Assembly: GCF_000296505.1 (NCBI RefSeq)
Contig: NZ_JH815209.1
Coordinates: 590,047-654,046 of the forward strand
From: Schaalia turicensis ACS-279-V-Col4
GTDB taxonomy: Bacteria > Actinomycetota > Actinomycetes > Actinomycetales > Actinomycetaceae
DNA length: 64,000 nucleotides
Direction of reading: 5' to 3'
The notes under the pieces are model-generated. The model saw only the letters and a list, made by a program, of their open reading frames with translations. It was not told the DNA's origin and ran no database searches. Made by a program: the position numbers and the translations under genes. The stretch's first letter is position 1. Each line of letters starts with the position of its first letter. Shown in pieces: positions 47,822 to 64,000 of this stretch.

Positions 47822-50800
47822 TTAAGCCCTGGACTCTCCACGTCTAGTCCGATACAGGTAGCCACCCCCTGCCAAAGCAACTATCAACAGCGCCGCGTAA
47901 CCCGCGACGTAGTTGAGGCTAAACACGCCCGTCTTGGGCAGTACAGCCTCGACAACATGAACCGTGATCGGCTTACGCACCCAGTTGACACCCTCAATGG
48001 GCGTGCCGTCGCCACTCACCGTGCCGTCGTCATTCAGTGTGAAGCCCTCGCCCACTGCGTAGACGTAACACTTGTACGTGCCAACCTGGGCGTCGTTTGC
48101 GTTGCCGTCAATCTTCGCGACAGTACGCGCCTTGTAGCCGTCCAGACCGATCTGGTCGGCGTTAGGCGTTTCGACGCCGAACTTGGTGTCGCTGATCCCC
48201 ACCGAAGGCTGGCCGTTTTGATCGGAAGGTAGGCCGTCAACGGAGCCGTCAGAGGCCTGGGACGGGGCGCAAAGCGTCTGAACGTTGATCTTCGAGGGAT
48301 TCCCGTGAGAGAAAGCCTCAACGTTCATCGGCCTGAACATCGGCGAACCCTTAACGATCGTCTCCTCGTCGGGCATAACGTTCAGCTCCAACGCCTGCTT
48401 GATGTTAAGCAGGAACGTGCGCTCGCCAAGCCAGTTCTCGTCGACATGAGTGGTCTTGTTCAGCGACTTGTTCGGGCTGAACTGCGTGGTGTTGCGATCT
48501 GTGTTGCCGGTGGCGTCGGTGAAGTTCACGTGGCACATGTATGTCCCCGCCGACTTACCCTCCGTGCCGACAGTCAGTTGCCACGGGTCGTTAACCACGT
48601 CGGTTGCTGGCTCGAACACGCCGCTGTCGTTGAGCCTGCCCTGCTGGCCGGTCAAGGTCAGCGTCTGGCCACCAACGTCCTCAGTGTATTCGATGCCTTG
48701 GTGGAAAACCTTCCTGGGTTTATTGGCAGTTCCGCCGTCACCCACAACGGGCGCGCAGAATGTGGCGCTAGTCAGGTCAGTGTCCGTCGCGCTATGGCCA
48801 GTTATCGCAACCGGGTAGCTACCCTTGCCGTCGTTGTCTTTGACATAGACGTTGTTGATAACTGTGTCGGCAGCAACCTGGCCGTTCTCGCCAAGGTAAA
48901 CCTCTTGATCGTTTATCCCGTCGATATTCGGAGGCGTGGCGTCCTCAACCGTCACCGTTATCGGTAGCTTGGCGACCTTCACCACGGTGCCGTCCTGGTA
49001 GGTCCAGCGAGCAACCATCTTGTATTCGCCGACGTTATTCAGCTGACCCTTGAACACGACATCGGTTAGGTTGCCGCGGGCGTCGCGCACTTCCTCTAGC
49101 GAGAGCACCGGATATTTATTCAGCTCGGCCGCATCAGCCGGTGGCGTCTCGTATTCCAGCGTGAACCCGCTACCCTTCTTCATGTTGGCCGTGACGCCAT
49201 TCATGCCAAACAGGGAGTACGACTTGTGCCCGTCTTTCGAGTTGATCGGCTTGCCAACGTAGTTGGTCTCGGTCTCCAACAAGGTGCCTGCTTCACCGGT
49301 TATTGTCTGCGCGGTAAGAACGGTCTCGTTGTTGGCGACCGTCATGTTGTACCTGGCGGTGACAGTTGCGGTCTTGCCGTCATTGTTGCGGACGGTCAAC
49401 TCGACGTCAACCCAGGTTTGTTGTTCTTTAGTCGGCGTGCCGATGAAGTAGTAGCCGTACTTCTTACACGGCTCGCCTTCGCCACCTGGGATCTCGCATC
49501 TAGTGCCGAAACTGACGCCTTCGGGTAGCTGAGCAGGGTTCACCACTCTCATGGAGTCGAGCTTCTGGTCGGTGCCATCGGAGTTCTTGCCCAGGGTGTA
49601 TTCAAGCGGGCCCCACGTCACCGGGTTGTTTACCGTGCCGTAGAAATCGGCAGGTTTAAGCGTCGGCTTTGCAGCGGGCTCGGCCAGTACCTCAATGTTC
49701 ATGATGAACGAGATCTCTTCGTGCTCGCCGTGGTCGGACGAGTTGGTGCTGGTCGCCGTCACCTTGTACTGGTAGACGCCCAGCGTGGCATCACCCGCGA
49801 CCGTGCCGTCCAGCTTGATAATGCGCTTATTGCACGTCGCCGGATCGCCAGTGGCAAGCAAAGCATCGCCCTCATCGGTGAGACACTTGCCGTTGTTAGC
49901 TTCACCGAGGTTCACGCCTTTAGGACGGTTGTCGCCCATCGGCTCGAACTTCTTGATCTGGTATGCCGCCTCGCCAGCCTTAGGCCCAGCCAAGAACTTC
50001 AGGTCGAAGTTATCTCCGCGATGCACACGATAGGTGTCACCCTGCTTCCAGACGGTGGTGCCCGAAGCAGGCTGCTCCCCATCCATAGCCGGTGAGAAAG
50101 CGCCTTCGCCGGTCCAGGCTGTAATGACGGGATCTTTCAGGTCGACGTCAGGAAGAACCTCGATGCGCCAAGGCTCGGGAAGCGTTATGCGACTATTGGG
50201 AGTGCCAAAGGCGAATTGCGGCTCGTCAATGACGTCGACCTGCAGGTCGTGGATGCCGAGCGGAGCGCCGTAGCGCAGGCGACCCGTGGGCTTATTAGCC
50301 GCGCTATGCGGATTGAAGTTGGCGGGTTTGCCGTTCCATTCGTCAGGTAGCGATTCCTCAAGATTCTTGTCGTAATTCTGGGCCTCGAAGCCTGCTCTAC
50401 CACGAGTGTTTCGGTACTTATCCATGAAACTGCCCTTGGAATAGATCGGCACGCCGTCCTCGGCGTCTGTGGAGATCACACAGCCGACGCGTTCGCTGGG
50501 CAGGTTATTGTTATCGCCGTTGTACATAACCGTGACGATGTCGAGGCCAAGCTCACGCCAGAGCTTTTCCTGCTCGTATTTCGGAATGAACTTTAACTTC
50601 TGGTTGTTGTAGCCATTAGAAATGGTGCCAGCATAGTTGGTTCCGTTGTGGTAACGGAATATGTACTTGCAGAAGCTGCCTTTTGCATTCCAGTCGACAA
50701 GACTATCCGTCTTAAATACCTTATTTTGGGCGTCCCACGTCCAATCGGAGGTGTCCCACTGCTTCGAGGCCCAGTCGCCACCTTCGGTCTTGTCAGTGGA

Positions 50801-53614
50801 TTTCGTGTTGAAGTCCTTGGTGTTGTACTGTCCGACAATCCAACGCCCGTCAAAGCCGACCGGCTCGCCCCAGTGGAACTGGTGCGGACGCGGGTTCGAC
50901 CAGTTCTCGTTGTAGAACCTGCGGGCGTTGTAGGGAACCAACACAGCCTGTTTGGTCTGGGCCTTGGGTAAAGCACGCTCAGAGTTAACGCCCTTGTGGA
51001 TCACCTCGTTGCCGTTTGAATCCAGCACGGGGTTGCCGTTCTTGTCCAGCACCTTCGTTTCGGACATCCACTCGCGACTGAGGTAGTCGCCGGCCTTCTG
51101 GGTCTGGTAGTCGAAGGTGAGCACCTGAACACCGACGTTCAGCTCGGACTTGTTTGGAGGAGTAACACAACCATCAGGTGTATTGAGTTTGCCGGTGATC
51201 TGGTCTACAGGAATACTGCCGTCATCATTCCTTTGCATCTTGGGGCTGCACAGGACGATGTCTTTGTTCGGCATCTTCTCGCCACCGGGACGAACCAGGA
51301 AGTAGCCGGGATCCTTGTTTGTACCGACCTCGTTTTCCCAACGTTTCTTATCACCTTGTAAGCCTCCCCAGACAGTCTTATTACTCCACCAGGTGCGGGA
51401 GTCGTCTGACCCGCCACCTGGCTGGTTTCCCCAGACAAGTGTCGGCCAACGCTCGCCCGTGTTTCCGGAGACAGCATCGTAGTATTTGCCGTTGCCACGC
51501 ACGCGCCAAACTATGTCATTAAAACCATCGACTGGCTTGCCGGTGACTTTGTTGTAGAACTGCCATGCACCGTAGTCAATGTTCGAGCTACCACCGGCAG
51601 CCGATGAAAAGTCTCCCTTGGTTTGGACGCTGTTCTTCAACTTGCCGTCACTGTTCCACACGATCAACTGGCCGGAACTCTGGCTACCGCCCTTAGTACG
51701 ATCACTTAATACGCTGCCGGGCTGGTAGTCTTTGCCGTCGCGCACCTCCACGCGAATCGGGCCGTTACGGTAAGCCTCTTTAGTGCCCGCAACAGCATTT
51801 TCCGTAGCAAGGGCACCACTGTTAAGGCTGCGGCGATACGGGGTCAGATAGACCGGCGTACCATACGGGGCCCCGTAGAGCTGCTGGCAAGAACCCTCGC
51901 CGGTGCCCTCCGTGCAGGGGATGTGGCAAAACGAGCTGTTATTCTTGTCTTGATCTCGATTCGCTTCACCATTAGTGTTCAGTTCGCCGACGGTCGGGTT
52001 CTCCACGCAGTTTGTTTCGAAGTCGGCTTCGGTAAGCGATTTTCCGGCATCTGCCGTTTCGGCATCGGTGCCTTTTTTGTTGTATCCGTTCTTATAGAAA
52101 CCACCGTATTTAATGCGATTGAACTGAGTGTAGGTGTCGGGATCCGGTATTATCTCCGTCGCGTAATCGGCATTTTGCTTTGGCGTGTAGCCCAGGTGAA
52201 TCTCGGTATAGGGCAGGACAATCTCCGGCTGATCCCACTCCCAGCCGTCACCCAGCGCCGACCCGCCGGTGGTTTCACACTGTTTCTGGGAAAGCACCCT
52301 CATCGAGTCGGTGTCTAGCTTCGTGTCACCCCGCGCCAGCGTCAACGCGCCGCGCCCGGTGTTCGCCTCGTTAGCGCGGATACCGTCCAGCTCTGCCTCA
52401 GTGAAAGTCACCTGCTGTGAGCAAATGCCGTCACCATCGCAAGACGCCGTGATCTGCTTGGAGATCTCGGTGCCGTCGCCGTTGGGCTTAAACGTGAGCG
52501 TGTAACTGGTGCCCTTGTGCAGGCCCTTTAGAGTCACGGAAACATCGCCGGCGGTCTTGCCGTCTTCGCCACACGGCTTGCTGACCGCATCGATGAACGG
52601 CTCAAGAACCGTGAACGGACGCTGATCGACGACCTCATCGCGCGGGATGGTCATGCCCTTGAGCGGGTAGTTAGTGCCTACGTCTATCGGCTTAGTAACA
52701 TCAAAATCCTGCTTAGCTTTAGTGTGCACCAACCGCATCAGATAATTGCCCGCAGCAAGGTCGACCGGCACATTCCACTCGCCCATTGACTTGTGGGCGA
52801 ACTGGTCTTCAATGACTTCAACTACGCCGTTGGCATTCTTCTTGGTGTCGGGGCGAATCTGCGAATCGACCTCGCGGCAGGTTGGCTTGCCTTCAGTCAG
52901 CTTCAGTTTGCCGTCGGCATCTGCATCGCACAGCTCGACGCGGTGCGTGCCCTCATCGGCGTCACGCGACTCGCCCAAATCGAGATAGCTGGTGTACACC
53001 TTCTGGCCAGGCAGTGCGGTGTAGCTGGCTTCGCCCTCCTGAGACTTGCCGTAAGCGTCGTCGCGGGCCTGCCGCGCTTTATCGTTCTCGGCGGCCTCGT
53101 CAGAACCCTTAGTTATATTGCCCGTGTAGGTGAAAACCTTGGAATCGGTGACCCGCAGTGGCGCGATATTGATGACGTCGTACTCAGTCTGGCCCTTTGA
53201 ATTGCCCAAAGCATCCTTCTGCGGCTCGCGCTTGGAGACCAGCGCCATCTGGTAATCGCCGGTCGGGAATCCCTCCGGCACTTGCATCTTCATCAGGCCA
53301 TTATTTTTGGTAGCCACATCCTCGGAGGTGACCCAACCCTCTTCGTTGGCGAAATACCAAGACCCTCGCTCTGAAGCAATGGAATCCCAGGAGGAACCAC
53401 GCGGCACGGCGACCAAACGGTAGCTGAAGCCAGGCATCGGCACCCTGATATTCGCCCAGATAGTCTTAGCGTCTTTGCTCTCCTGCTCATCAATGGTGCT
53501 CTCGTTTGCCAGCACCGACTCGGTGGAGTGCCGCGAATAATCCACCTCGGGCAGGGTTGGGATCAGACCCAGATCGAGACCAGTTCCAGCCAACTGGTAG
53601 TTATTCTGACCCAC
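47822..53614 (-). CDS. C-terminal part of giant LPKTG pilus-tip adhesin (separated by in-frame amber codon)
   Basis: 1930 residues from a GTG at 53614 if translated independently; the open frame actually begins at 53746, right after a TAG. It has no signal peptide of its own. It consists of an acidic, Trp/Tyr/Asn-rich adhesin region, at least two Ig-like or cadherin-like stretches near the end ('PNIDGINDQEVYLGENGQVA') and a terminal 'LPKTGVFSLNYVAGYAALLI' with 'RTRRGES'. The reading frame is the same as that of the upstream 53747-55057 CDS, and the intervening 44 codons encode adhesin-like sequence. The two are therefore one ancestral gene of about 2,410 codons. It lies upstream of the shaft pilin, the normal place of a tip subunit. 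Without read-through this part would not be secreted. Confidence 0.75.
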   Translation of the reverse strand: MGQNNYQLAGTGLDLGLIPTLPEVDYSRHSTESVLANESTIDEQESKDAKTIWANIRVPMPGFSYRLVAVPRGSSWDSIASERGSWYFANEEGWVTSEDVATKNNGLMKMQVPEGFPTGDYQMALVSKREPQKDALGNSKGQTEYDVINIAPLRVTDSKVFTYTGNITKGSDEAAENDKARQARDDAYGKSQEGEASYTALPGQKVYTSYLDLGESRDADEGTHRVELCDADADGKLKLTEGKPTCREVDSQIRPDTKKNANGVVEVIEDQFAHKSMGEWNVPVDLAAGNYLMRLVHTKAKQDFDVTKPIDVGTNYPLKGMTIPRDEVVDQRPFTVLEPFIDAVSKPCGEDGKTAGDVSVTLKGLHKGTSYTLTFKPNGDGTEISKQITASCDGDGICSQQVTFTEAELDGIRANEANTGRGALTLARGDTKLDTDSMRVLSQKQCETTGGSALGDGWEWDQPEIVLPYTEIHLGYTPKQNADYATEIIPDPDTYTQFNRIKYGGFYKNGYNKKGTDAETADAGKSLTEADFETNCVENPTVGELNTNGEANRDQDKNNSSFCHIPCTEGTGEGSCQQLYGAPYGTPVYLTPYRRSLNSGALATENAVAGTKEAYRNGPIRVEVRDGKDYQPGSVLSDRTKGGSQSSGQLIVWNSDGKLKNSVQTKGDFSSAAGGSSNIDYGAWQFYNKVTGKPVDGFNDIVWRVRGNGKYYDAVSGNTGERWPTLVWGNQPGGGSDDSRTWWSNKTVWGGLQGDKKRWENEVGTNKDPGYFLVRPGGEKMPNKDIVLCSPKMQRNDDGSIPVDQITGKLNTPDGCVTPPNKSELNVGVQVLTFDYQTQKAGDYLSREWMSETKVLDKNGNPVLDSNGNEVIHKGVNSERALPKAQTKQAVLVPYNARRFYNENWSNPRPHQFHWGEPVGFDGRWIVGQYNTKDFNTKSTDKTEGGDWASKQWDTSDWTWDAQNKVFKTDSLVDWNAKGSFCKYIFRYHNGTNYAGTISNGYNNQKLKFIPKYEQEKLWRELGLDIVTVMYNGDNNNLPSERVGCVISTDAEDGVPIYSKGSFMDKYRNTRGRAGFEAQNYDKNLEESLPDEWNGKPANFNPHSAANKPTGRLRYGAPLGIHDLQVDVIDEPQFAFGTPNSRITLPEPWRIEVLPDVDLKDPVITAWTGEGAFSPAMDGEQPASGTTVWKQGDTYRVHRGDNFDLKFLAGPKAGEAAYQIKKFEPMGDNRPKGVNLGEANNGKCLTDEGDALLATGDPATCNKRIIKLDGTVAGDATLGVYQYKVTATSTNSSDHGEHEEISFIMNIEVLAEPAAKPTLKPADFYGTVNNPVTWGPLEYTLGKNSDGTDQKLDSMRVVNPAQLPEGVSFGTRCEIPGGEGEPCKKYGYYFIGTPTKEQQTWVDVELTVRNNDGKTATVTARYNMTVANNETVLTAQTITGEAGTLLETETNYVGKPINSKDGHKSYSLFGMNGVTANMKKGSGFTLEYETPPADAAELNKYPVLSLEEVRDARGNLTDVVFKGQLNNVGEYKMVARWTYQDGTVVKVAKLPITVTVEDATPPNIDGINDQEVYLGENGQVAADTVINNVYVKDNDGKGSYPVAITGHSATDTDLTSATFCAPVVGDGGTANKPRKVFHQGIEYTEDVGGQTLTLTGQQGRLNDSGVFEPATDVVNDPWQLTVGTEGKSAGTYMCHVNFTDATGNTDRNTTQFSPNKSLNKTTHVDENWLGERTFLLNIKQALELNVMPDEETIVKGSPMFRPMNVEAFSHGNPSKINVQTLCAPSQASDGSVDGLPSDQNGQPSVGISDTKFGVETPNADQIGLDGYKARTVAKIDGNANDAQVGTYKCYVYAVGEGFTLNDDGTVSGDGTPIEGVNWVRKPITVHVVEAVLPKTGVFSLNYVAGYAALLIVALAGGGYLYRTRRGESRA

Positions 53615-53746: not shown

Positions 53747-55057
53747 CTACCAGCCATTGGCACCAACCGCGGCGAAACCTTCGGGCAAACCACTGCCCGA
53801 AGAACTTGCCTTCAGGATGCGGCTCTTATTTTCAGGCTTCAGCAGCTCGTTATAAAGCCCTTCCGACTTGGCTTTTTCGGTGCCAGCATCCTCAGCCTGC
53901 GGGCGACGATCCTTGTTAATCAATGCCTTGATATCGGCCTCTGCCTCTTCATAGTTCGCTGGCGGCTCGATGGTCACCATGAACTTGGCAGGCGAAGCAC
54001 CCGCCGAAATCGGGCGGTTATGAACTTCGGATACATCGTCCCAGCCGATGCAGAACGCGCCGTCCATATCGGTGTAGTCGTAGCGGGTCTGCAAAATGTC
54101 CGTCGGCTTGCCGAGGCCGTCCTGGGCATAAGAAGAAACCACAACTCGCACGCCAGGCACAGCCGGGTCTTTAGCTGCAGTTCGGTCTCTCTTGCCCGGC
54201 GCGCTATCCCAGCGGTCAAATCTGAACGTGCGGTCGGCATAAACGTGGCCGCACAGGAAAAGGTTAGTGTCAACGTTGCGCTTACCTGGCGCAACGTGAC
54301 GCGACGAAGGCACCCACTGGTTCTTCGGCAGGTGCTTGCCCTTCTTGTCGTACTCGTCGCCCAGCGGGTCGGCGGGAGACTGACGGCTGGCAGGGTGGCC
54401 GTTCACATCATCCTTGTTCCAAGCGTCGTTCTCGTCTGCGGCGGTCTTCGTTTTGGGGCGGAAAGCCATGTTGAAGTTCGAGATCGAACCATGAATGTAG
54501 TTTGTGGTTCCCAACCATGACAGGGTTAGCGTGTCAACGACGTTGAAGCGGCCGCCGCCGTTGAGGCGCTTGGGGGTGAAATCTGCAAGCGGGCCACCAG
54601 GGTTGTAGTTGGACTCATCAACCCAGACCCGAACCCGGTCGAAGCGCTCGATACGTACGCGCGGGTTCTCTGCATCGGCAGGCAAGTTATACGCTTCGCG
54701 CAGCGCTGGACGGAAGTTGAAAGTGTAGTCACCATCCGCGTTGGTGGTGGCCTCGAACGGCACCGGGTTGTTGAACTCGTCGCGAGACATAATCACCGTG
54801 CCGTCAGACTTAATCAGCATGGCCTTCATCTTGACGCCTGCGATCGGCCAGTCCTGCGGGTCGAGACGCGTGGAAGCGTTGTAGATCTCGGGGTTGTGGC
54901 GGTGGTCATCGTAAACCTTGCCCCTAATCGTGCCGGGTTGCCCGCCCTCTAAGCCATCGTTGCCCAGGGATCGCGGTGCCGCGATCGCCTCAGCAGGTGT
55001 AAGTGTTATCAGCAGCAGGCAGCAAAGAAGGGCTGCTAAAAGCCCGCTCCCCCTCAT
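53747..55057 (-). CDS. N-terminal part of the pilus-tip adhesin, ends at an in-frame TAG
   Basis: 436 residues from ATG 55057, which has a perfect AAGGAGG site eight bases upstream; earlier in-frame starts (55177, 55099) lack it. A signal peptide 'MRGSGLLAALLCCLLLITLT' ends near 'AEAIAAP'. Next come Cna-B/SdrD-like modules: 'GTIRGKVYDDHRHNPEIYNA', 'NADGDYTFNF', 'VRVVVSSYAQDG' and 'YDYTDMDGAFCIGWDD'. The frame stops at TAG (53747-53749) after 'GFAAVGANGW' and continues in phase as 'GTIRPAYGNAGAPFGTGVSS' into the large downstream CDS. As it stands the product would be secreted but not wall-anchored. The interruption is a point nonsense change, regulated read-through or a sequencing error; I cannot tell which. 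Confidence 0.75.
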   Translation of the reverse strand: MRGSGLLAALLCCLLLITLTPAEAIAAPRSLGNDGLEGGQPGTIRGKVYDDHRHNPEIYNASTRLDPQDWPIAGVKMKAMLIKSDGTVIMSRDEFNNPVPFEATTNADGDYTFNFRPALREAYNLPADAENPRVRIERFDRVRVWVDESNYNPGGPLADFTPKRLNGGGRFNVVDTLTLSWLGTTNYIHGSISNFNMAFRPKTKTAADENDAWNKDDVNGHPASRQSPADPLGDEYDKKGKHLPKNQWVPSSRHVAPGKRNVDTNLFLCGHVYADRTFRFDRWDSAPGKRDRTAAKDPAVPGVRVVVSSYAQDGLGKPTDILQTRYDYTDMDGAFCIGWDDVSEVHNRPISAGASPAKFMVTIEPPANYEEAEADIKALINKDRRPQAEDAGTEKAKSEGLYNELLKPENKSRILKASSSGSGLPEGFAAVGANGW

Positions 55058-55177
55058 GCGGAAGATCCCCTCCTTAGGTCGAGCTGCCCTCAAACGCATC
55101 CCAAACGCCCCTTCTTTGTTGCTTAGAACGGTTCCATAGTAAAGGTACTCTTCCAAAGAGAAGTTCGCAAACCCCAT

Positions 55178-55301
55178 TTGCGAACACCGATAACTCTATT
55201 GAGCCGGTGAAAAATCAAATTTTCACAGAGGCTCTTCCCAAAAAACCGGGGTTAATACCCAAAACTTCAAATTCAGTGAAAGATGTTTCACTTCCCTAGC
55301 G
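55178..55301. other. Divergent AT-rich spacer between adhesin and silent hsdS
   Basis: This AT-rich gap should hold the pilus-operon promoter. A minus-strand TTGATT and AGTTAT with a 17-bp spacer is the best but weak candidate. Two small hairpins are present: GTGAAAAATCAAATTTTCAC near 55207-55226 and GTGAAAGATGTTTCAC near 55277-55292. Confidence 0.35.
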
Positions 55302-55964
55302 ATGGTCGCTAGTGCCTGCAAAATTATTGAAGGATTATTAGCAATTCGCGAATTCACGGTAACTCGAGATGCTGAGAGCACACAGCGACAATCGCCTTCG
55401 ACGCCAGCTTGGGAACAGCGTAAGTTGGGGGATACAGTAGGATCAACTTATGGTGGTGGCACTCCAAGCACATTGCATGATGAGTACTGGGGTGGCGTCA
55501 TACCATGGATTCAATCCTCGAACGTCGTAGAAAACGAACTGTTTGACATCGATATCCCAAAGGCTATAACGCCGGAAGGGCTGAACAAATCAGCAGCCTT
55601 GCTTGTCCCCAAAAACTCTATCGCTGTGGTTACTCATGTCGGTGTTGGTAAGCTCGTTTACCTGCCTTTTCCCTATACAACGAGCCAAGATTTTGTCTCG
55701 CTTTCCGAGCTGAAAGGCGACGCGTCGTTCCTTTGTTATTCGATTTACAAGAAGCTTAATTCTGAGCTTCATATGGTTCAGGGTTCGGCAATTAAAGGAA
55801 TTACAAAAGAAGAATTCCTCAGTAAAGAAATCAGCCTTCCGGGTGTCGAAGAGCAGGCTGCAATCGGCGATTTCTTCTCCCGTCTCGACCGCCTCATCAC
55901 CCTTCATCAGCGTGAGCCACCCCACATGATGAAAGAGGGTAAAAATGCCAATCAGTATCAATGA
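55302..55964 (+). CDS. Silent HsdS cassette (one target-recognition domain), type I specificity subunit
   Basis: 220 codons. The first 35 do not resemble HsdS; homology starts at 'AWEQRKLGDTVGSTYGGGTP' and runs through one target-recognition domain to 'EEQAAIGDFFSRLDRLITLHQRE', ending with an unrelated tail. A true HsdS N-terminus is lacking, so this reads as a donor cassette rather than an expressed gene. It faces the expressed hsdS at 56868-57500 head-on, with the recombinase gene between. A 19-bp repeat at the start of the domain (55408-55426) and a 36-bp perfect repeat at its end (55885-55920) recur inverted in the expressed copy. Confidence 0.8.
   Translation: MVASACKIIEGLLAIREFTVTRDAESTQRQSPSTPAWEQRKLGDTVGSTYGGGTPSTLHDEYWGGVIPWIQSSNVVENELFDIDIPKAITPEGLNKSAALLVPKNSIAVVTHVGVGKLVYLPFPYTTSQDFVSLSELKGDASFLCYSIYKKLNSELHMVQGSAIKGITKEEFLSKEISLPGVEEQAAIGDFFSRLDRLITLHQREPPHMMKEGKNANQYQ
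55408..55426 (+). repeat. Outer inverted repeat, left copy (hsdS switch)
   Basis: CTTGGGAACAGCGTAAGTT, encoding 'WEQRKL', is repeated in inverse orientation at 57424-57442 in the expressed hsdS. Recombination between the copies would invert about 2.0 kb and exchange the recognition domains. Confidence 0.9.
55885..55920 (+). repeat. Inner 36-bp inverted repeat, left copy (hsdS switch)
   Basis: Perfectly identical over 36 bp to the complement of 56888-56923. It encodes 'RLITLHQRE' and lies just before the recombinase start. Adjacent bases differ on both sides, so the boundaries are exact. Confidence 0.95.
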
Positions 55965-56871
55965 AGAGTCGCTTTTCTGCGATTACTACTCGCAATGGAT
56001 TAGCGTCTACAAAGAAGGGGCCATCCGTGAGGTCACCATGGGAAAGTACCGTCTCACGCAGTCTTGGCTAGCCAAACTGATTCCAGACCTGAAGATAAAA
56101 GATCTGGACCGGACCTCGTACCAGCAGCTCATTAATGGTTATGCAGAGCACCACGAACGCCAGACAACCATGGACTTCCACCATCAGCTTAAGGGGGCGA
56201 TCCTTGACGCAGTTGACGAAGGATTCATTCCCCGCGACCCTACGCGCAAGGCTATTATTAAAGGAAAACAGCCGCGTGCGAAAAAGATCAAGTATCTCAA
56301 TCAGTTTGAGCTTCATGCCATGCTCGGCGACCTTGATTTATCAGGCGGGCCGAGTTGGGATTGGCTTATTCTCGTAGTCGCTAAAACGGGCCTTCGCTTC
56401 TCCGAAGCCCTTGGGCTTACCCCCGAAGACTTTGACTTCGCTCATCAAACGCTTTCGGTGAACAAGACCTGGGATTACAAGAACGGCGGTGGATTCGTCC
56501 CCACGAAAAACGCCTCCTCGGTGCGGAAGGTTCAACTCGACTGGCAACTCATCATGCAACTTTCTGGGCTACTCAAAGATCTTCCGCCGACTGAGCCCAT
56601 ATTTGCGAAGGGAAAGGTCTATAACTCGACGGCTAACAGCGTTTTAGCGCGCCACTGCAAAAATGTTGGCGTGCCTGCCATATCCGTCCACGGGTTGCGG
56701 CATACACATGCATCACTTTTGCTGTTCGCTGGCGTATCCATCGCCAGCGTATCCCGAAGGCTCGGGCATGCAAGCATGACCACCACTCAGGAAACCTATC
56801 TGCACGTCATCCAAGAGCTCGAGAACAAGGACATTGACATCGTCATGAGGGCTCTTTCGACTCTTATTTAA
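55945..56871 (+). CDS. Tyrosine site-specific recombinase (probable HsdS invertase)
   Basis: 308 residues, the usual XerC/D-like length. The catalytic set is complete: Arg151 ('TGLRFSEALGL'), Lys178 ('VPTKNASSVRKV'), His249 and Arg252 ('SVHGLRHTHASLL'), His275 ('RRLGHASMTTTQETY') and the nucleophile Tyr285. An N-terminal SAM-like DNA-binding domain occupies about the first 100 residues. It lies between two inverted hsdS segments, overlapping the end of the silent cassette by 20 bp and the end of the expressed hsdS by four, and is flanked by the 36-bp perfect inverted repeats. Enzymes in this position in other bacteria invert hsdS segments; that role here is inferred from context. Confidence 0.88.
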   Translation: MPISINEESLFCDYYSQWISVYKEGAIREVTMGKYRLTQSWLAKLIPDLKIKDLDRTSYQQLINGYAEHHERQTTMDFHHQLKGAILDAVDEGFIPRDPTRKAIIKGKQPRAKKIKYLNQFELHAMLGDLDLSGGPSWDWLILVVAKTGLRFSEALGLTPEDFDFAHQTLSVNKTWDYKNGGGFVPTKNASSVRKVQLDWQLIMQLSGLLKDLPPTEPIFAKGKVYNSTANSVLARHCKNVGVPAISVHGLRHTHASLLLFAGVSIASVSRRLGHASMTTTQETYLHVIQELENKDIDIVMRALSTLI

Positions 56872-57500
56872 CCTGTATCAGCAAATCGTGGCTCACGCTG
56901 ATGAAGGGTGATGAGGCGGTCGATCTCACTCAACGCCGCGCCTATGGCAGTTTGCTCCGACAAGCCAGGAAATCTTACTTGTGTATCTTGCAGTGCGGCC
57001 TTTGAAACGGAAATCACCTTGATCCCCTGCATTAAGGGAAGAAGCTGTCTGTGGTATGCATCGGAATTAAGGTAGTGCCCCAGGTAACCCGCCCCAAAGG
57101 GGAACCGAGGCCGCGCCGGTATCGTATGTAACCCCGAGATAGTTGGCTCTTTGGGTAGTTTCCGCAGTTCAACACACTTGCCAGCCGCTTCGTCCTCTGC
57201 TGTGTCGGCGAAAATGACATCACCTTCGCGAAGTATCGACCCAGCAAATTTGGGAAGCACTGTATCGTCGGTAATGAACGGCAAATCGCTTCGTTCGCCA
57301 TCGAGGCAATCACCGAACTTAATAAGAATATCTCCGTAATGAACATTGCGAGCAGTGCCATTCTCGCCATTCAAACCAGCGCGTGAAAGAGTGTTGTTCT
57401 TCAAGAACTCGAAGCAGTCTCCTAACTTACGCTGTTCCCAAGGGTCAGTGAAACCCTTGAACCTGATCTTTGGTTTTCTGCTCTCCACGTTACTCACCAC
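56868..57500 (-). CDS. hsdS: Type I specificity subunit HsdS, single-domain (half-length) form, expressed copy
   Basis: 210 residues from GTG 57500 (a second GTG follows at once). It has a genuine HsdS N-terminus, 'ESRKPKIRFKGFTDPWEQRK', then one target-recognition domain and the conserved central helix region 'EQTAIGAALSEIDRLITLHQRE', and stops after 'PRFADTG'. Full HsdS proteins have two such units and about 400 residues, so this is a half subunit that would have to dimerise, or a truncated product of earlier inversions. It begins directly after the hsdM stop and is on the same transcript. The 19-bp and 36-bp repeats at the two ends of its recognition domain match the silent cassette in inverted orientation. 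Confidence 0.82.
   Translation of the reverse strand: MVSNVESRKPKIRFKGFTDPWEQRKLGDCFEFLKNNTLSRAGLNGENGTARNVHYGDILIKFGDCLDGERSDLPFITDDTVLPKFAGSILREGDVIFADTAEDEAAGKCVELRKLPKEPTISGLHTIPARPRFPFGAGYLGHYLNSDAYHRQLLPLMQGIKVISVSKAALQDTQVRFPGLSEQTAIGAALSEIDRLITLHQREPRFADTG
56888..56923 (-). repeat. Inner 36-bp inverted repeat, right copy (hsdS switch)
   Basis: Exact complement of 55885-55920, located at the 3' end of the expressed hsdS and encoding 'RLITLHQRE' there. Confidence 0.95.
57424..57442 (-). repeat. Outer inverted repeat, right copy (hsdS switch)
   Basis: Exact complement of 55408-55426, located where the HsdS N-terminus joins its recognition domain ('WEQRKL'). Confidence 0.9.
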
Positions 57501-60095
57501 TTACTCACCACCAAGGAGCTTCTGAAGCTCAGCCAGTCCGGCCATGTCGAACTCGTCTCCCACGAGGTTGTCGATCATGGTGGAAAGCTCCCTCTCGCTC
57601 GCCTCGATCTGCTCGCTGAGGTCTTTCAGCGTCGTTTCGTATTTGGAGCTGAGGGCGTCTACCTTCGAGGCCAGGTCATCAACGAGGACGCTTGGCATTC
57701 CGTACACGGCGTTTGCGAACGGCGCAATCCATTTCTTGGAGAGAAGCTCTTGGACTTGCTCGTCAGTCAACGCTTCAATGGTCTCCTTGCATGATGCATG
57801 AAGCTCGGCCCCGGCAGTCTTGATCTGACCCTTGAGCTTCTTCTGCTCATCGATGAGATCCTGGACGCGTTTCAGCGTTGCGACATAGCCCTTGAGCTCG
57901 GGATCTGTTTTGACCTCAGCAGCAAGAGCCTTCGCGAGTTTCTTGACCTCGGCGACCTTCCACGCCGCATTGTCGTCGTCGAGCGCCTCCGAGAGGGCCT
58001 CGCGCTCCTCTTCGGAGAGCTCCTCGGCGCTTTGGTCGATGTCGGACGTGCATGCGCTCAGCTGTTCTTCCAGTGCCTTGATCGCATCGGATTGATCCTT
58101 GAGCAGCGTCGCCTCGATCAGATAGAACGGGATGACGCGCCCCTCCCAGCCGTCTTGAACCTCGACTTCCTTGTTGTTCTTCTTCTTGATCACCATGTGC
58201 GGGTCAACCTTGGTGGCGGCGGACATACCTTCGGTTTGGAGCACCTCCAGGTCGAGAGATACATTCGCTGTCCATGTGTCGTCAAGCGCTTGGTATGCAG
58301 CATACGGATCGGCAAGCTCGATGCCTTCGAGAGCCTCGAACAGCTTGGAGGCGATCGACTGCTCCATCCTTGCGGCATCTACCGCGCACGGGTCGGAGAC
58401 AAGCGCATCGTGGACCCAGTCGATGACGGGCTCCATGCATGCGTTGAACGACTCGCGGTACGCCACCACATCAGGATTTGCCTCAATCGCCGCACGGACG
58501 TCCTCCACAGCGGGCATCACGTACGCGCCGTCGCCCGCGAAGAGCTGGTCGCGCAGGCTCGGCCAAGCATTCCAATACCGCTCAAGCTCATCGACTTCAC
58601 TAGCGGGAATCCCGCCAAACATGCTCGCATAGATGTCCCAGCTCTCGGGTCTATCCGACGAGTCCACATAGCGCGGGATGTTCAGGTTGTAGTCGTTGGA
58701 GCGGATCTCATCAAGAGAGACGAGACGGCTGAAGCCTTCGACGCTCTTACGTTCACACACGACGTCGGAGATTCGCTTGATGTCACATGCGCGCAGTTTG
58801 TTGTTCTTGCCGACCTTCTCAAAGCCCTTGGAGGCGTCCACGATCAGTACATCGGACTCGTCGCGCTTCTGGCGCAACACCATGATGATTGTGGGGATAC
58901 CGGTTCCGAAGAAGATATTGGCCGGCAGGCCGATGATGGCTTGGATATGGCGGTTCTCCAACAGGTTGCGCCTGATCTGGCCCTCCTCACCACCGCGGAA
59001 TAACACGCCATGGGGCAGAACGATGCACATGATGCCCTCGGGGCGCAGATGGTAGAGGTCATGCAGGAGGAATGCATAATCGGCCTTGCTTTTGGGAGCT
59101 AAACCGTATGCATAGCGCGGATCAACCTCCTTGTCGGTAGGGTCCCAGCGCTGGGAATACGGCGGGTTAGAGACAACCGCGTCCACATAGAGCGGGTTGT
59201 AAGTACCCGCGGGATCCGACTCGTCGAAGTAGGGCCAGTCATCTTCCAGGGTGTCGCCATTTCGCGCGGTGATGTTTGAGGGAAGGATGCCACGCATGAT
59301 CAGGTTCATGCGTGTGAGGTTGTAGGTGTTCTCCTTGAGCTCCTGGGCGAAGTACTTGATGCCGTCCGAGCTGCCCACGCGCTTGGCGACGGCCTTACCA
59401 ATGTTAATGAGCAAAGAGCCGGAGCCAGAGGTCGGGTCGCAGATGGAGATCTCGCTCTTCTCCTTGCAGTGCTCAGCCACAATCTCGCTCATGAGCTGGC
59501 TAACTTCGTGGGGCGTGTAGAACTCGCCGGCCTTCTTGCCGGCGTTCGCGGCGAAGTTGGAGATGAGGTATTCGTAGATGAAGCCCAGGACGTCGTAGTC
59601 AGCACGGCCACCCATGGGGATATCCTTGATAGTGTCCAGCAGGTCACGGATGGCCTTCGTTTGAGCGGCGGCGTTCTCGCCGATCTTGGACAGGCCGGTC
59701 TCAAGAGTCTCGAAGATACCCTCGAACACCTTCTTGTGAGCCGGGTTAATGTTGCGATTGAAGGCCGAGATGGAGGTTCGCACGTCGTCGACGGAGAACT
59801 TACGACTTGTGTCTGCGAACTCCTCGGACAGCCAGGTGGAGAAGAGGCTCTCGTGTCTGATGAAGTAGCCGATGTTCTTCCGGATGTACTCAACAGTCTC
59901 GCGGTCGTCCTCGGAAAGCGCTCGGATGTCCTCGTCCTCGAAGTCGTGCGCCTTGCACCAGCGAATCTCTGTTTCCGACAGGAACTTATAGAAGATGAAG
60001 CCCAGGATGTAGTCCTTGTACTCGTTAGCCTCGATCTTGGAGCGCATCTTGTTGGCTGACTCCCAGATCTTCGATGCGAGCTGATGCTTGTTCAT
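57501..60095 (-). CDS. hsdM: Type I DNA adenine methyltransferase subunit HsdM
   Basis: 864 residues. The HsdM N-terminal helical domain ('LASKIWESANKMRSKIEANE', 'YILGFIFYKFLSETE') is followed by 'GEFYTPHEVSQLMSEIV', SAM-binding motif I 'CDPTSGSGSLLINIG' (about 219-233) and catalytic 'SNPPYSQRW' (about 309-317). The C-terminal 300 residues are long, acidic and contain coiled-coil segments ('LEEQLSACTSDIDQSAEELS', 'LSSKYETTLKDLSEQIEASE'). They extend beyond the 500-550 residues of classical HsdM, as in several Gram-positive homologues. It modifies adenine at sites chosen by HsdS. It starts right after the GIY-YIG gene (stop at 60096-60098). No hsdR is present in the window. Confidence 0.92.
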   Translation of the reverse strand: MNKHQLASKIWESANKMRSKIEANEYKDYILGFIFYKFLSETEIRWCKAHDFEDEDIRALSEDDRETVEYIRKNIGYFIRHESLFSTWLSEEFADTSRKFSVDDVRTSISAFNRNINPAHKKVFEGIFETLETGLSKIGENAAAQTKAIRDLLDTIKDIPMGGRADYDVLGFIYEYLISNFAANAGKKAGEFYTPHEVSQLMSEIVAEHCKEKSEISICDPTSGSGSLLINIGKAVAKRVGSSDGIKYFAQELKENTYNLTRMNLIMRGILPSNITARNGDTLEDDWPYFDESDPAGTYNPLYVDAVVSNPPYSQRWDPTDKEVDPRYAYGLAPKSKADYAFLLHDLYHLRPEGIMCIVLPHGVLFRGGEEGQIRRNLLENRHIQAIIGLPANIFFGTGIPTIIMVLRQKRDESDVLIVDASKGFEKVGKNNKLRACDIKRISDVVCERKSVEGFSRLVSLDEIRSNDYNLNIPRYVDSSDRPESWDIYASMFGGIPASEVDELERYWNAWPSLRDQLFAGDGAYVMPAVEDVRAAIEANPDVVAYRESFNACMEPVIDWVHDALVSDPCAVDAARMEQSIASKLFEALEGIELADPYAAYQALDDTWTANVSLDLEVLQTEGMSAATKVDPHMVIKKKNNKEVEVQDGWEGRVIPFYLIEATLLKDQSDAIKALEEQLSACTSDIDQSAEELSEEEREALSEALDDDNAAWKVAEVKKLAKALAAEVKTDPELKGYVATLKRVQDLIDEQKKLKGQIKTAGAELHASCKETIEALTDEQVQELLSKKWIAPFANAVYGMPSVLVDDLASKVDALSSKYETTLKDLSEQIEASERELSTMIDNLVGDEFDMAGLAELQKLLGGE

Positions 60096-60668
60096 CTACC
60101 CCATTCCCTTCCTGTAGACAGCTTCTAGTGTGTCGCCGCTAGTGTTTATCCATTCTGTCCAGCCGTTTCGCCTTCCGCCCAACGCGAATACGGCAGTGGC
60201 ACTGGGAGAATTGAATTCGAGATTGTCTTCGAGGATCGAAGATTCCTCTTTATCAGGGCCTATCTGGGAGTGAGGAATGTTCGCGTTGTCCGTTTCGTAT
60301 GAGCCGTGGGAAGTGATGGAAGAAATCGATGTTGCCTCAAGAGCGTCGAGGACACCTCTGTCGATGCTGGCCTCGTGGTCCAGGAATATGATGGCCCTGT
60401 TCCAGATTGATTTCCTTGCCTTGTGCGCGTCCAATCGGGTCACGCCTTGAGTTGTCTGGCCCGTGTAAACGCGGTTTAGGTTCCCGTGGTCTTCATCGAG
60501 AAGGTAGCAGATCCCTCGAGGCGGGATATCCGGCAACTGTTTGGCCTCTAGGAGATTATCCCTGGGGATAACGCTGGTCACCAGAGACTCACCCTCGACA
60601 CGGCAGATGCGAATGCCGTCAAGATCGCCTCCGATGAGCTGCATTGTGCTGGTTTCGAGGCTAATCAT
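60096..60668 (-). CDS. GIY-YIG nuclease-family protein linked to the hsd locus
   Basis: 190 residues. The GIY-YIG strand pair is 'RGICYLLDED' (Gly52-Ile-Cys54) and 'RVYTGQT' (Val67-Tyr-Thr-Gly70). Arg78, His82, the 'KSIWNRAIIFLD' strand and the candidate metal-binding Glu111 ('LDALEATSIS') follow at normal spacing. An Asn-rich loop ('YETDNANIPH') and a C-terminal 'TAVFALGGRRNGWTEWINTS' resemble the DUF4357-type end found in a subgroup of these proteins. The Tyr of the first strand is replaced by Cys (G-I-C), so activity needs testing. The ATG overlaps the upstream RHH stop (ATGA), so the two are translationally coupled and lie in one operon with hsdM and hsdS. Confidence 0.75.
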   Translation of the reverse strand: MISLETSTMQLIGGDLDGIRICRVEGESLVTSVIPRDNLLEAKQLPDIPPRGICYLLDEDHGNLNRVYTGQTTQGVTRLDAHKARKSIWNRAIIFLDHEASIDRGVLDALEATSISSITSHGSYETDNANIPHSQIGPDKEESSILEDNLEFNSPSATAVFALGGRRNGWTEWINTSGDTLEAVYRKGMG

Positions 60669-60883
60669 CGCGTCACCTCCTCAGCCCAATCAGCAAGTTG
60701 TGCGATAAGCCCGGCTCGGACCATCGCACTGAAGTTCGTCCCTTGGAGTGCAGCTGCGGCCTTTGCAGCATCACGTAAGTTCTCGGGAAGCCTGATGGTA
60801 ATGGCAACCTGCTCACCTTGTGCGAGGTATTGCTGTATTTCAGCAGGATCAGCACCATTCTTCACTAGCTCTATGTAACTCAT
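60665..60883 (-). CDS. Small ribbon-helix-helix (CopG/Arc-like) DNA-binding protein
   Basis: 72 residues from ATG 60883 (GGGAG six bases upstream; ATG 60901 would add six residues without a good site). The core 'QVAITIRLPENLRDAAKAAAALQGTNFSAMVRAGL' fits an RHH fold: a short beta strand, then two helices. Such proteins are antitoxins or operon autorepressors. As first gene of the RHH-GIY-YIG-hsdM-hsdS operon it may regulate the whole operon. Antitoxin function is possible but unproven. Confidence 0.65.
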   Translation of the reverse strand: MSYIELVKNGADPAEIQQYLAQGEQVAITIRLPENLRDAAKAAAALQGTNFSAMVRAGLIAQLADWAEEVTR

Positions 60884-60920
60884 CGAATGCTCCCGAAACA
60901 TTACTTTTGCAATACAAGAT

Positions 60921-60948
60921 ATTTTAACTCAAAGCAAACACCGCACAA
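60921..60948 (-). promoter_or_regulatory. Candidate promoter of the RHH-GIY-YIG-hsdM-hsdS operon
   Basis: Minus-strand TTGTGC (60943-60948) and TAAAAT (60921-60926) are separated by 16 bp, 40 bp upstream of the RHH start. A TTGTATTGCAA partial palindrome between the -10 and the start could be an operator. Confidence 0.4.
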
Positions 60949-61361
60949 CATCGTTAGCGCGACATTCGACGACGAACGCTTTCGAAGCCTTAGCGCGCCT
61001 TAGCGTGCGCCAGAGATTCGCGGTGCAACCTAGTAAACGAGCTGACGGAGCGGAGGAAGGAATTCGCGCCCTTCGGAATAGGGCTCCTCATGGGGCTCCT
61101 CACGCTCACGGCCTACGCCTGCTGCGCCGCCGGCGACGACAGGGATTGAGCACGGCGTAAACAACAAGCAGCAACCGAATTCATCGCCCAAAACCTCTCA
61201 TAACGCGGAAGCATCCATGCTTTTTGGCATCTATAAGACGCCAACACCCACTGTCTGACATGCGCCCGTCACATACGGTGGAATAATCACGAACGAAGCA
61301 GGTCCCACGCGAGAATTACATCCCCTACAGAGAATGCAGTTCTCGAAACCAGGAGGCGAAG
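60949..61361 (+). other. Intergenic stretch with a possible gene-end remnant
   Basis: No complete gene is seen. On the plus strand, 61033-61149 reads as 'NELTERRKEFAPFGIGLLMG' and 'LLTLTAYACCAAGDDRD' before a stop, with the GC-rich third positions of the neighbouring EcsC-serpin gene. This looks like the end of a deleted membrane-protein gene. The promoter of the EcsC-serpin gene should lie between 61150 and 61340. Its start has AGGAGG six bases upstream. Confidence 0.3.
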
Positions 61362-63752
61362 ATGGACGACGAAATAGTCGATTCGGGCCATATGAAGAAA
61401 GGCGGCCTTTTAGACAGGTTGGTAGCCGGCGTTGCAGATGCCGCGGATGCGGGTGCAAAAGCCGTGAATGCCGGCGCCGAGGCGATCAAGGCCGGAGCAA
61501 AAAAGACCCACCAGGCATTCGGGGGCGAATACGGAGAGGTATTCGAGGGAAACCTCGTCGGCGAGGACGGCTCGTATATCATGCCGGACCCCGCGCTCGA
61601 CGAGCGAGAGTTCAACGAGATTGAAACCCTCGCGAAACGCTACGAGAAGCTTACATCGCCCGGCACACTCGCGAAGGCTGGTAAGCAGATCGGCGAGGCG
61701 GTGCCCGCGCCCATGAAGGCCCTCGCCAATAAGGCTGGGAAGGCCGCGAAGGACGCTCTCAACGGGTTAACCGAGCAGGAACTTATGGCAAACGCCATCA
61801 AGGCGGCAGCAGAGGGATTCGGGGAACTCGAGAAGCAGGCGGCGAAGGCGAGCGTCAGCAGGGAGTACGTCATTTCCCGTATCAACGAGGGCAAGCAGGA
61901 ACAGAAGGTCTCCTCGCTCTCCGAGATATGCCTGCTGCGCGCCTACGACGTCGCCGCAGTGTCCGCGAACGAAAGGCTGCACCACATGGGCATAGCCCTC
62001 GCCGAAGGCGGAGGCACGGGCGCCGCGGGCTTCTGGGGTCTGCCCGCCAACCTCGTCCTCAGCATGCTCATCTATTTCAGGGCCGTCCAGTCAGTCGCCA
62101 TGTTCTACGGCTACGACGTCAAAGACGACCCGTCCGAGCTCGTCATCGCGAGCGAGGTGTTCAAGAGCGCCCTCGCTCCCAAGGCCAAAGTCGACGCCTC
62201 GAGCGAGTATATCGGCAAGGCCCTCGTCTACGCGGAAGCGGCAGTGGTCAAGCAGACCGCGAAGAAGGGCTGGTCGGCGATGGTCGAGCAGGGCGGCGCC
62301 GCCCTCGCGATAGCCCAGATCCGCGCGCTTGCCAACGGCGCTGCCCGCAAGGCGGTCGAGAACGGCGGCAAGAAGGCGCTCGAGGCTGGAGTGTTCAAGA
62401 AGGCGCTCACCCAGATCGGGCAGAAGATGACGCTCGAGACCGTCGGGAAGATGGTCCCCGTCATCGGCGCGGGCTTCGGGGCGCTGTTCGACAGCGCGCA
62501 GATGAAGAGAATCCTGGATTTCGCGGACCTCTTCTACCACAAGCGCTTCATCGTCGAGAAGGACCAGCGCGCCCGAGCCCTCGCGGAAAGGGGACCCGAG
62601 CCGTCAGTGTCCGATAGCCCCGCGGAGATGAAAGAAATCGCCTTGGCGCCCAGCCCAGAACAGGGGCTCGACTCCATAGCCGCACGGCTTCTCGAGATCG
62701 GTCTCAGAGACGGCAAGAGCTTCGTTTCCTCGCCCGCGTGCCTCCAGGTTGCGCTCGAGGCGCTCGCAAGGGGTGCGGAGGCGGAGACGCTCGCCGAGAT
62801 CGATACGGTGCTCGGCGACGCGGATGCGCGAGAAGCCGCCCACGCCGCGCTCTTCGGTGAACCCTCTGAAAGCCTGCCTGACAACTACAGCTTCACCATC
62901 GGCACGTCAATCTGGGCCGATCCCGACCGAGCGCCGCTTCACGGATCGTACGCAGAGTCGATTAGCGATATGAATGGCAAGGCGGTCGAGGCGAACCCCG
63001 CCAGCGAAGAAGCTCATTCGCGGATGTCGAGCTGGCTCGCCGAGAACACTGGAGGCAAGTTCACTTCGGCTCCGCAGCTCGATGCCTCGACGACGCTCGC
63101 CCTCATGAGCGCGATGCGCTTCAAGGACACGTGGATCAACCGTCTGGACGATGAAGAAACGGATATGCTGTTCCATGCCGCCAGCTCCACTCCGACCGTC
63201 ACGATGATGGGCGGGTTCAGCTTCTATGAAGACCTTATCAGGGAAGCGGGCGGCACCGCAGTGACCTGGCACATGGAGTCGGGAGCGCAAGCCGTGTTTG
63301 CCATGCCCGATGAAACGGCCAGCATCGAAGAGTTCATCGGGAGCGGTTCGGCGTGGAGCTTGATCTCCCGATGCCGTGATAGGAAGGGCGTCGAGCATCC
63401 CGAAGGAGGCATCGGGCTTGTCGTCCCCGAGCTCGACCTGAAGACGGAAGGCATGAGTCTCGATTCCACCATGAAGGCCATGGGAGTGCGGCGGCTCTTC
63501 TCGCCCGAGGCCCAGCTCGGCAGCCTCACCGAGGCGGACACAATGCTTGACAGGGCGATACAGAGCTCGATGCTCAAGCTCGACCCCAACGGGGCCGAGG
63601 GCGCAGCTTTCACGCTGTTTGCCTGCCGCGCTGGGGCTCTGCCGATGGACCCGCCCGAGCCCGTCAGGCTCGTCTTCAACCGACCCTTCGTGTTCGCGCT
63701 GTTCAACGATGCCGATGCGCCGCTGTTTGTCGGCGCGTACACGGGAGAATAA
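61362..63752 (+). CDS. EcsC-like domain fused to a serpin-family domain
   Basis: 796 residues with no signal peptide. Residues 12-55 are an Ala/Lys/Gly-rich amphipathic stretch. Residues about 100-410 match EcsC: 'SEICLLRAYDVAAVSANERL', 'GGGTGAAGFWGLPANLVLSMLIYFRAVQSVAMFYGYDVKDD', and paired glycine-rich helices ('MVPVIGAGFGALFDSAQMKRI'). From about 433 a serpin follows: 'SPACLQVALEALARGAEAET', 'TIGTSIWADP', 'NGKAVEANPASEEAHSRMSSWLAENTGGKF', 'LALMSAMRFKDTW' and the C-terminal 'VFNRPFVFALFNDADAPLFV'. The hinge of the reactive loop is 'DPNGAEGAAFTLFACRAGAL' (about 741-760), close to the inhibitory consensus; the P1 residue is uncertain (Gly or Arg). It would be a cytoplasmic or membrane-bound protease inhibitor. 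Codon use is more GC-rich than the hsd genes. Each domain call is good; the combined function is unknown. Confidence 0.75.
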   Translation: MDDEIVDSGHMKKGGLLDRLVAGVADAADAGAKAVNAGAEAIKAGAKKTHQAFGGEYGEVFEGNLVGEDGSYIMPDPALDEREFNEIETLAKRYEKLTSPGTLAKAGKQIGEAVPAPMKALANKAGKAAKDALNGLTEQELMANAIKAAAEGFGELEKQAAKASVSREYVISRINEGKQEQKVSSLSEICLLRAYDVAAVSANERLHHMGIALAEGGGTGAAGFWGLPANLVLSMLIYFRAVQSVAMFYGYDVKDDPSELVIASEVFKSALAPKAKVDASSEYIGKALVYAEAAVVKQTAKKGWSAMVEQGGAALAIAQIRALANGAARKAVENGGKKALEAGVFKKALTQIGQKMTLETVGKMVPVIGAGFGALFDSAQMKRILDFADLFYHKRFIVEKDQRARALAERGPEPSVSDSPAEMKEIALAPSPEQGLDSIAARLLEIGLRDGKSFVSSPACLQVALEALARGAEAETLAEIDTVLGDADAREAAHAALFGEPSESLPDNYSFTIGTSIWADPDRAPLHGSYAESISDMNGKAVEANPASEEAHSRMSSWLAENTGGKFTSAPQLDASTTLALMSAMRFKDTWINRLDDEETDMLFHAASSTPTVTMMGGFSFYEDLIREAGGTAVTWHMESGAQAVFAMPDETASIEEFIGSGSAWSLISRCRDRKGVEHPEGGIGLVVPELDLKTEGMSLDSTMKAMGVRRLFSPEAQLGSLTEADTMLDRAIQSSMLKLDPNGAEGAAFTLFACRAGALPMDPPEPVRLVFNRPFVFALFNDADAPLFVGAYTGE

Positions 63753-63763
63753 ACCACCCGTTT

Positions 63764-63805
63764 AACGAATAAGGTCCCATGCTCGAGCATGGGACCTTAT
63801 TCGTT
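63764..63805 (+). terminator. Terminator of the EcsC-serpin gene
   Basis: A perfect 42-bp palindrome (AACGAATAAGGTCCCATGCTC and its complement) is followed by TTCC; the right arm itself ends in CGTTTT. It lies 11 bp past the stop codon and may act in both directions. Confidence 0.88.
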
Positions 63806-63884
63806 TTCCTGCTTTCCGAGGTTGCTTCCACACGGTTTTCGTTTCCTCTTCTCACATCACCCACTTGAACACAGCGCGGAACAG

Positions 63885-63947
63885 TCAGACGAAAAAGCCC
63901 AGCGTGACCTTCAGCGCCGCCTTGAGGAACCTACCAAACCTCTTCAT
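63885..63947 (-). CDS. Possible 20-residue amphipathic small protein
   Basis: ATG 63947 opens 'MKRFGRFLKAALKVTLGFFV' and then a TGA. The peptide is cationic and could form an amphipathic or membrane-binding helix. It overlaps the end of the partial gene at the right edge in another frame, an arrangement compatible with coupled translation. No strong ribosome-binding site is visible, and it may be chance. Confidence 0.25.
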   Translation of the reverse strand: MKRFGRFLKAALKVTLGFFV

Positions 63948-64000
63948 CGACGTCACCCCAATCTTCCTTGACCTTGCGGGCGCCCTCCTCGGCGCCCTCT
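63931..64000 (-). CDS. Partial gene at the right edge, unknown product
   Basis: The minus strand shows the last 22 codons of a frame ending 'EGAEEGARKVKEDWGDVDEE' plus Val-Trp and a TAG at 63931-63933. Acidic and alternating residues and GC-rich third positions suggest real coding. I cannot assign a family from this length. Confidence 0.4.
   Translation of the reverse strand, partial: EGAEEGARKVKEDWGDVDEEVW

Follow-up and report, generated by a model that had tools for sequence, protein, structure and literature searches.

In Schaalia turicensis ACS-279-V-Col4 a single gene encodes an EcsC domain followed by a serpin domain, without a visible export signal; the fusion was confirmed as genuine, and it is rare, its two parts being known and its junction new. 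The serpin part has standalone relatives in which it is a separate protein. The product is tentatively read as an EcsC-anchored cytosolic serpin with an intracellular protease as its probable target; the membrane location, the trapping of a protease and the identity of the target are the parts we infer.

Gene structure and the junction

The fusion gene occupies positions 61362..63752 (plus strand) of the window, i.e. of the whole 64,000-nucleotide stretch analysed; it begins with ATG at 61362, ends with TAA at 63750-63752 and forms one unbroken open frame of 796 aa plus stop, with both Pfam domains and an independent copy, P0002. A ribosome-binding site read from the sequence (AGGAGG, 61351..61356, plus strand) is located 5 nt 5′ of the ATG, and a hairpin with an 18 bp stem and a 4-nt loop (63765..63804, plus strand; z -6.93; MFE -35.2 kcal/mol for a 78-nt stretch), likely a transcription terminator, begins 12 bases past the stop. 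By pattern scan, neither terminators nor sigma-70-like promoters were found in 60700-64000. The gene looks monocistronic because the nearest upstream gene (60665-60901) is on the opposite strand; the view downstream stops with the window at 64000, 248 bases past the gene. The amphipathic Ala/Lys stretch described in the original prediction is present at the N-terminus, where residues 16-48 (61407..61505, plus strand) are rich in Ala, Gly and Lys and have a hydrophobic moment of ~0.5; the model has a pLDDT of ~30 there and over residues 1-40. A tRNA-Cys called inside the gene by ARAGORN (61403-61475) was taken as probably false, since Rfam gave no match at gathering thresholds in 54000-64000.

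The EcsC domain covers residues 122-397 (61725..62552, plus strand) and was identified with PF12787 (1.1e-20; 74.7 bits versus a curated cut-off of 30.4; profile positions 21-240 of 240). It was modelled as all helical, the model of residues 1-433 being helical with a mean pLDDT of 67.1 (moderate confidence). No solved relative of the EcsC part was found by profile (best E-value 0.17) or by fold, where 0/414 matches (E <= 10) to this moderate-confidence query model reached E <= 0.001, and an NCBIfam search of the fusion gave no match. A linker of residues ~411-436 (62592..62669, plus strand), at which the relative P0003 leaves the window's frame, is followed by the serpin domain, residues 451-793 (62712..63740, plus strand; PF00079, 9.9e-38; 130.7 bits versus a curated cut-off of 27; profile positions 20-367 of 370). 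Sequence comparison matched the serpin part to 120 distinct solved chains, the best being conserpin (2.5e-17), and a profile of 21 serpin rows gave 212 matches to solved structures, the best at 4.8e-70; the serpin-part model itself was poor (mean pLDDT 47.8 from 21 alignment rows).

EcsC and then serpin within one gene, as originally predicted, was thus found in the form of both Pfam domains, in that order, in a single unbroken frame. A frameshift or assembly joint near residue 420, named beforehand as evidence to the contrary, was checked for; the frame proved continuous, codon use is similar in the two parts, and a second, independent copy exists. This copy, P0002, a 796-aa protein from a different assembly collection, shows 4 differences from the window protein and excludes a local assembly joint; it represents a cluster of 83 member sequences, the representative alone being inspected. 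Third-codon-position GC is 0.86 for the EcsC part and 0.78 for the serpin part, and the codon-usage distance between the two (0.094) is as small as their distances to the neighbouring modification gene (0.093 and 0.100), so that no composition break is visible near residue 420. A serpin-only product from an internal start at Met423 was considered and is possible, but the sole purine-rich site abuts that ATG directly. Later joining of two ancestral overlapping genes is not favoured, because the alternative linker frame offers no start codon after its stop and ahead of the serpin, the window sequence standing in here for the DNA of the relatives.

Occurrence of the fusion and frames of its relatives

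A search with the whole protein returned 39 proteins, among which both domains were present in P0002 alone and the other 38 had EcsC without a serpin (precomputed Pfam); a word search with residues 440-796 among candidates of ~438-1393 aa gave P0002 as the sole match. In both searches the best 7993 candidates by shared words were scored. Among the genomes of the phylum of G001 (an uncultured Clostridia bacterium), 42/299 matched the protein and 42/398 the EcsC part; at the places listed the longest open frames reached 523 and 418 aa, so that no fusion-sized frame was seen there. In a scan of genome contigs EcsC turned up at two loci, as single-domain frames of 344 and 360 aa. No EcsC-serpin architecture was found among the papers listed by the literature searches, judged by titles and abstract starts. 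The architecture had been put forward as rare and previously undescribed, and it can be kept as such: the junction occurs elsewhere only in P0002 within the searched collections and nowhere in the searched literature. A phage or plasmid origin was considered and rejected, as viral contigs contained no relatives, a DNA-level search of phage records found none either, and plasmids yielded distant single-domain relatives only (2 records for the fusion, 3 for P0045).

The EcsC-only proteins P0004 and P0005 (439-444 aa) have the EcsC domain and the Ala-rich N-terminus in common with the fusion and are 64-70% identical to it, but they end where the window's linker ends and have no serpin. In P0016, P0017, P0022, P0023 and P0036 an N-terminal zinc-ribbon (PF13240 or PF13248) precedes the EcsC domain, and EcsC is therefore joined to other modules too.

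Both the window and P0002 have the joined frame intact. Of the first 432 residues of P0003, 387 are identical to those of the window, after which the protein ends with QNRGATP-stop, which resembles the window linker read in another frame (QNRGSTP-stop). The start of P0042 corresponds to GTG codon 483 of the window and the start of P0043 to ATG codon 537; past the linker, these are the first two start codons that the serpin frame offers. On the simplest reading these close relatives would carry the same gene with a frameshift in the linker or beyond it, P0003 and P0042 presumably deriving from one gene. As the frame of close relatives is apparently shifted in this way, the joined product seems not to be kept everywhere. 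P0041, which is 99% identical and starts at residue 381, and P0044, which stops short of the natural stop, may be contig-edge pieces. The shifted-frame end of P0003, the starts of P0042 and P0043 and the retention of both domains in only 1/39 matches would fit a lineage-specific fusion in which the covalent link is of little or no use and which is already decaying in close relatives; this is judged improbable, since the window and P0002, with its 83 member sequences, both retain the whole frame, and the serpin frames of P0042 and P0043 are open and 81-89% identical to the window, which is above expectation for long-dead genes.

The serpin part, its family and the inhibitory signature

A search with the serpin part gave 23 matches, 12 of them full-length standalone serpins from metagenomes (P0045-P0056; 386-389 aa, 44-52% identical to the window); P0041-P0044 are nearer to the window serpin (81-99%) but partial, P0057-P0061 are either incomplete or out of frame at their ends, and P0062 and P0063 are distant (25%). 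The standalone proteins P0045-P0056 belong to the same family as the fused serpin and, like it, have no export signal, a Pro at P17 and changes in the shutter; unlike it, they have no EcsC domain. At the inferred P1′ position, 12/12 have Cys (AGC in 9, AAC in 3), where the fused clade has Ala.

Export signals were called by simple heuristics (lipobox, N-terminal hydropathy), not by SignalP, and the hydropathy threshold of 2.3 was picked after the values were known. In the fusion no lipobox was found and the maximal 12-residue mean Kyte-Doolittle value within the first 60 residues was 1.18, which agrees with the predicted lack of an export signal. The lack is not peculiar to the fusion, which corrects the original interpretation: none of the 12 full-length standalone relatives has a lipobox, nor an N-terminal run of 12 residues exceeding 2.3, compared with a hydrophobic N-terminal stretch in 14/18 and a lipobox in 10/18 of the serpin frames from comparison genomes. 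Since all 12 standalone family members are alike in this respect, the novelty lies in the junction and not in an intracellular serpin. A 35-row tree groups the window with P0042 and P0043 (100/100) inside a 15-row family (100/100), whose own branch is 2.66 changes per column long. The absence of export seems to predate the fusion, because the fused clade nests in a family without export signals. N-terminal transport peptides are attributed to most prokaryotic serpins, and intracellular control of proteolysis is hypothesised for some, in the available part of Spence et al. 2021.

The 15 family rows were compared with 20 outgroup rows (18 comparison-genome frames plus P0062 and P0063); names of P positions, shutter residues and W194 follow what we take to be antitrypsin numbering. 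The consensus of an inhibitory hinge, P17-P9, is given as ExGTEAAAA in the available text of two papers. The original description of the window hinge as near-consensus holds for P15 Gly, P13 Glu and P12-P10 Gly-Ala-Ala and fails for P17 Pro, P14 Ala and P9 Phe. In the family, P15 is Gly and P13 acidic in 15/15 rows and P12-P10 are small save for one Val at P11. P17 is Pro in 15/15 family rows versus Glu in 19 and Ala in 1 of the outgroup rows, P12 is Gly in 15/15 versus 2/20, and P9 is aromatic in 15/15 versus 3/20. In the shutter, N186 is replaced in 15/15 family rows versus 0/20 outgroup rows (Ser in the window), H334 is changed to Gln in 15/15, including the window, versus 4/20, and S56 is changed to Cys in 9/13 family rows covering the site, and in the window, versus 0/20; the window retains S53, but with S56, N186 and H334 changed its shutter departs from the inhibitory pattern. 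W194 is conserved in 35/35 rows.

Identity within the family is higher in the hinge (0.84) than in the body (0.61). For the loop, P8-P4′, the values for loop and body were 0.78/0.83 in the fused clade, 0.88/0.87 in six standalone rows, 0.71/0.88 in four, 0.83/0.70 in two and 0.52/0.61 overall, so that the loop is less conserved than the body in 2/4 subgroups and in the whole family and more conserved in the other 2; with conservation relative to the body mixed among subgroups, there is no uniform arms-race sign in the loop.

Judged by its residues, the inhibitory pattern of the family is neither canonical nor plainly degenerate. A working suicide inhibitor, as first proposed, stays a proposal, P17 and the shutter residues leaving the inhibitory pattern across the whole family. 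These same changes, fixed in the family, would be expected if the serpin domain were a non-inhibitory binding or scaffold module that has kept the fold and lost the trapping mechanism, and a precedent is suggested by a Streptomyces clade in which breach and shutter deviate, many members keep the hinge motif and a non-inhibitory function is proposed (Spence et al. 2021, in the part available). Such a module is a serious possibility, if a doubtful one: the hinge is better conserved than the body, and Gln at H334 and an aromatic P9 occur also in some comparison serpins, so that these two changes alone are no mark of lost function. Trapping of a protease by the serpin part is plausible and, on these residues, would rank a little ahead of the non-inhibitory role.

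Cellular role, gene neighbourhood and meaning

In the reading of the fusion as an EcsC-anchored inhibitor, a cytosolic serpin that is a separate protein in relatives would here be attached to an EcsC-family protein at its C-terminal end. The EcsC part would most likely determine where the serpin sits in the cell, probably on the cytoplasmic side of the membrane. The serpin part would most likely trap, inside the cell, one serine or cysteine protease per molecule, the target more likely being one of the cell's own proteases. This reading is favoured by domain scores far above the cut-offs, an intact frame in two copies and a conserved hinge; against it stand the P17 and shutter changes, the lack of a clear transmembrane helix and the relatives apparently without the joined frame. 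The most hydrophobic 19-residue window of the fusion scores 1.54, slightly under the usual transmembrane threshold of ~1.6, and membrane attachment, as originally predicted, stays a prediction. Host granule proteases, one of the targets first suggested, fit poorly with a cytosolic protein, and the arms-race sign in the loop is mixed. Taken together, the domains, their order in one gene, the missing export signal and the rarity stood, and the working inhibitor, the membrane binding and the target stay proposals. A protease-operated membrane switch, in which cleavage of the loop by an intruding or misplaced protease and the ensuing stressed-to-relaxed change would pull on or release the EcsC part and alter the membrane, the serpin acting as a sensor as well as a trap, is the boldest of the readings considered and very improbable.

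EcsC takes its name from the ecs operon, which encodes the Ecs transporter, and EcsC of the Bacillus subtilis operon has the EcsC domain as in the fusion but no serpin. PinA of Clostridium thermocellum carries a dockerin module. Like the fusion, PinA is a bacterial serpin within a modular protein, but it is cellulosomal and so extracellular. The ecs operon contains ecsA and ecsB, neither of which was found among the scanned upstream neighbours of the fusion gene, with only 248 bases visible 3′ of it. The Ecs transporter has been linked to intramembrane proteolysis, the accessible part of that paper (PMC2996298) making no mention of EcsC. The group T/U serpins (miropin, siropins, the Bifidobacterium serpin, tengpin, thermopin) have the serpin fold in common with the fusion; most groups are inhibitory by sequence, and no EcsC fusion appears among them in the portion of Spence et al. 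2021 available.

Upstream of the fusion gene and on the minus strand lie a small gene (60665-60901) with weak, below-cut-off ribbon-helix-helix matches, a DUF4357 gene (60096-60668), a type I modification gene (57501-60095) and a type I specificity gene (56868-57500), followed on the plus strand by a phage-type integrase (55945-56871) and a second type I specificity gene (55302-55964). Together with the DUF4357 gene, the small gene may form a pair, regulatory or antitoxin-like, ahead of the modification gene. Perfect 36-nt inverted repeats (55885-55920 and 56888-56923) flank the integrase, and the region 55302-57500, with two opposed specificity genes around it, looks like an invertible, phase-variable specificity locus. 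Further away, at 47822-53614, a 1930-aa frame without a Pfam match at 1e-3 is situated near sortase and SpaA-type pilin genes.

With the modification gene, the two specificity genes and the integrase adjoining, and with matches of the EcsC part to the PADLOC candidate PDC-S29 (4.3e-12) and of the DUF4357 gene to the candidate PDC-S14 (4e-32), the fusion could belong to an anti-phage island, where it would meet a phage protease or guard a host process against one. This is very unlikely. PADLOC candidates are putative labels, and PDC-S29, which appears for Streptococcus thermophilus in the PADLOC call table of the available part of PMC11514479, also matches 5/5 of the EcsC-only relatives tried (of 38), so that the tag is roughly equivalent to EcsC and adds little beyond it; the fusion gene is transcribed away from the modification genes, and viral contigs and, at DNA level, phage records contain no relative. 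What is left to speak for defence is the position of the gene, and a defence role is accordingly given very little weight.

The fusion is a curiosity for specialists, its appeal held back by an inhibitory signature that is incomplete and by indications that the gene is broken in relatives. A natural fusion of a serpin to the poorly understood EcsC protein gives a hint, open to testing, that EcsC proteins act where proteolysis needs control. Of more general significance may be the standalone family, in which export signals are missing, P17 Pro is fixed and the shutter is altered; it raises the question of whether proteases can be trapped by serpins that lack the usual shutter.
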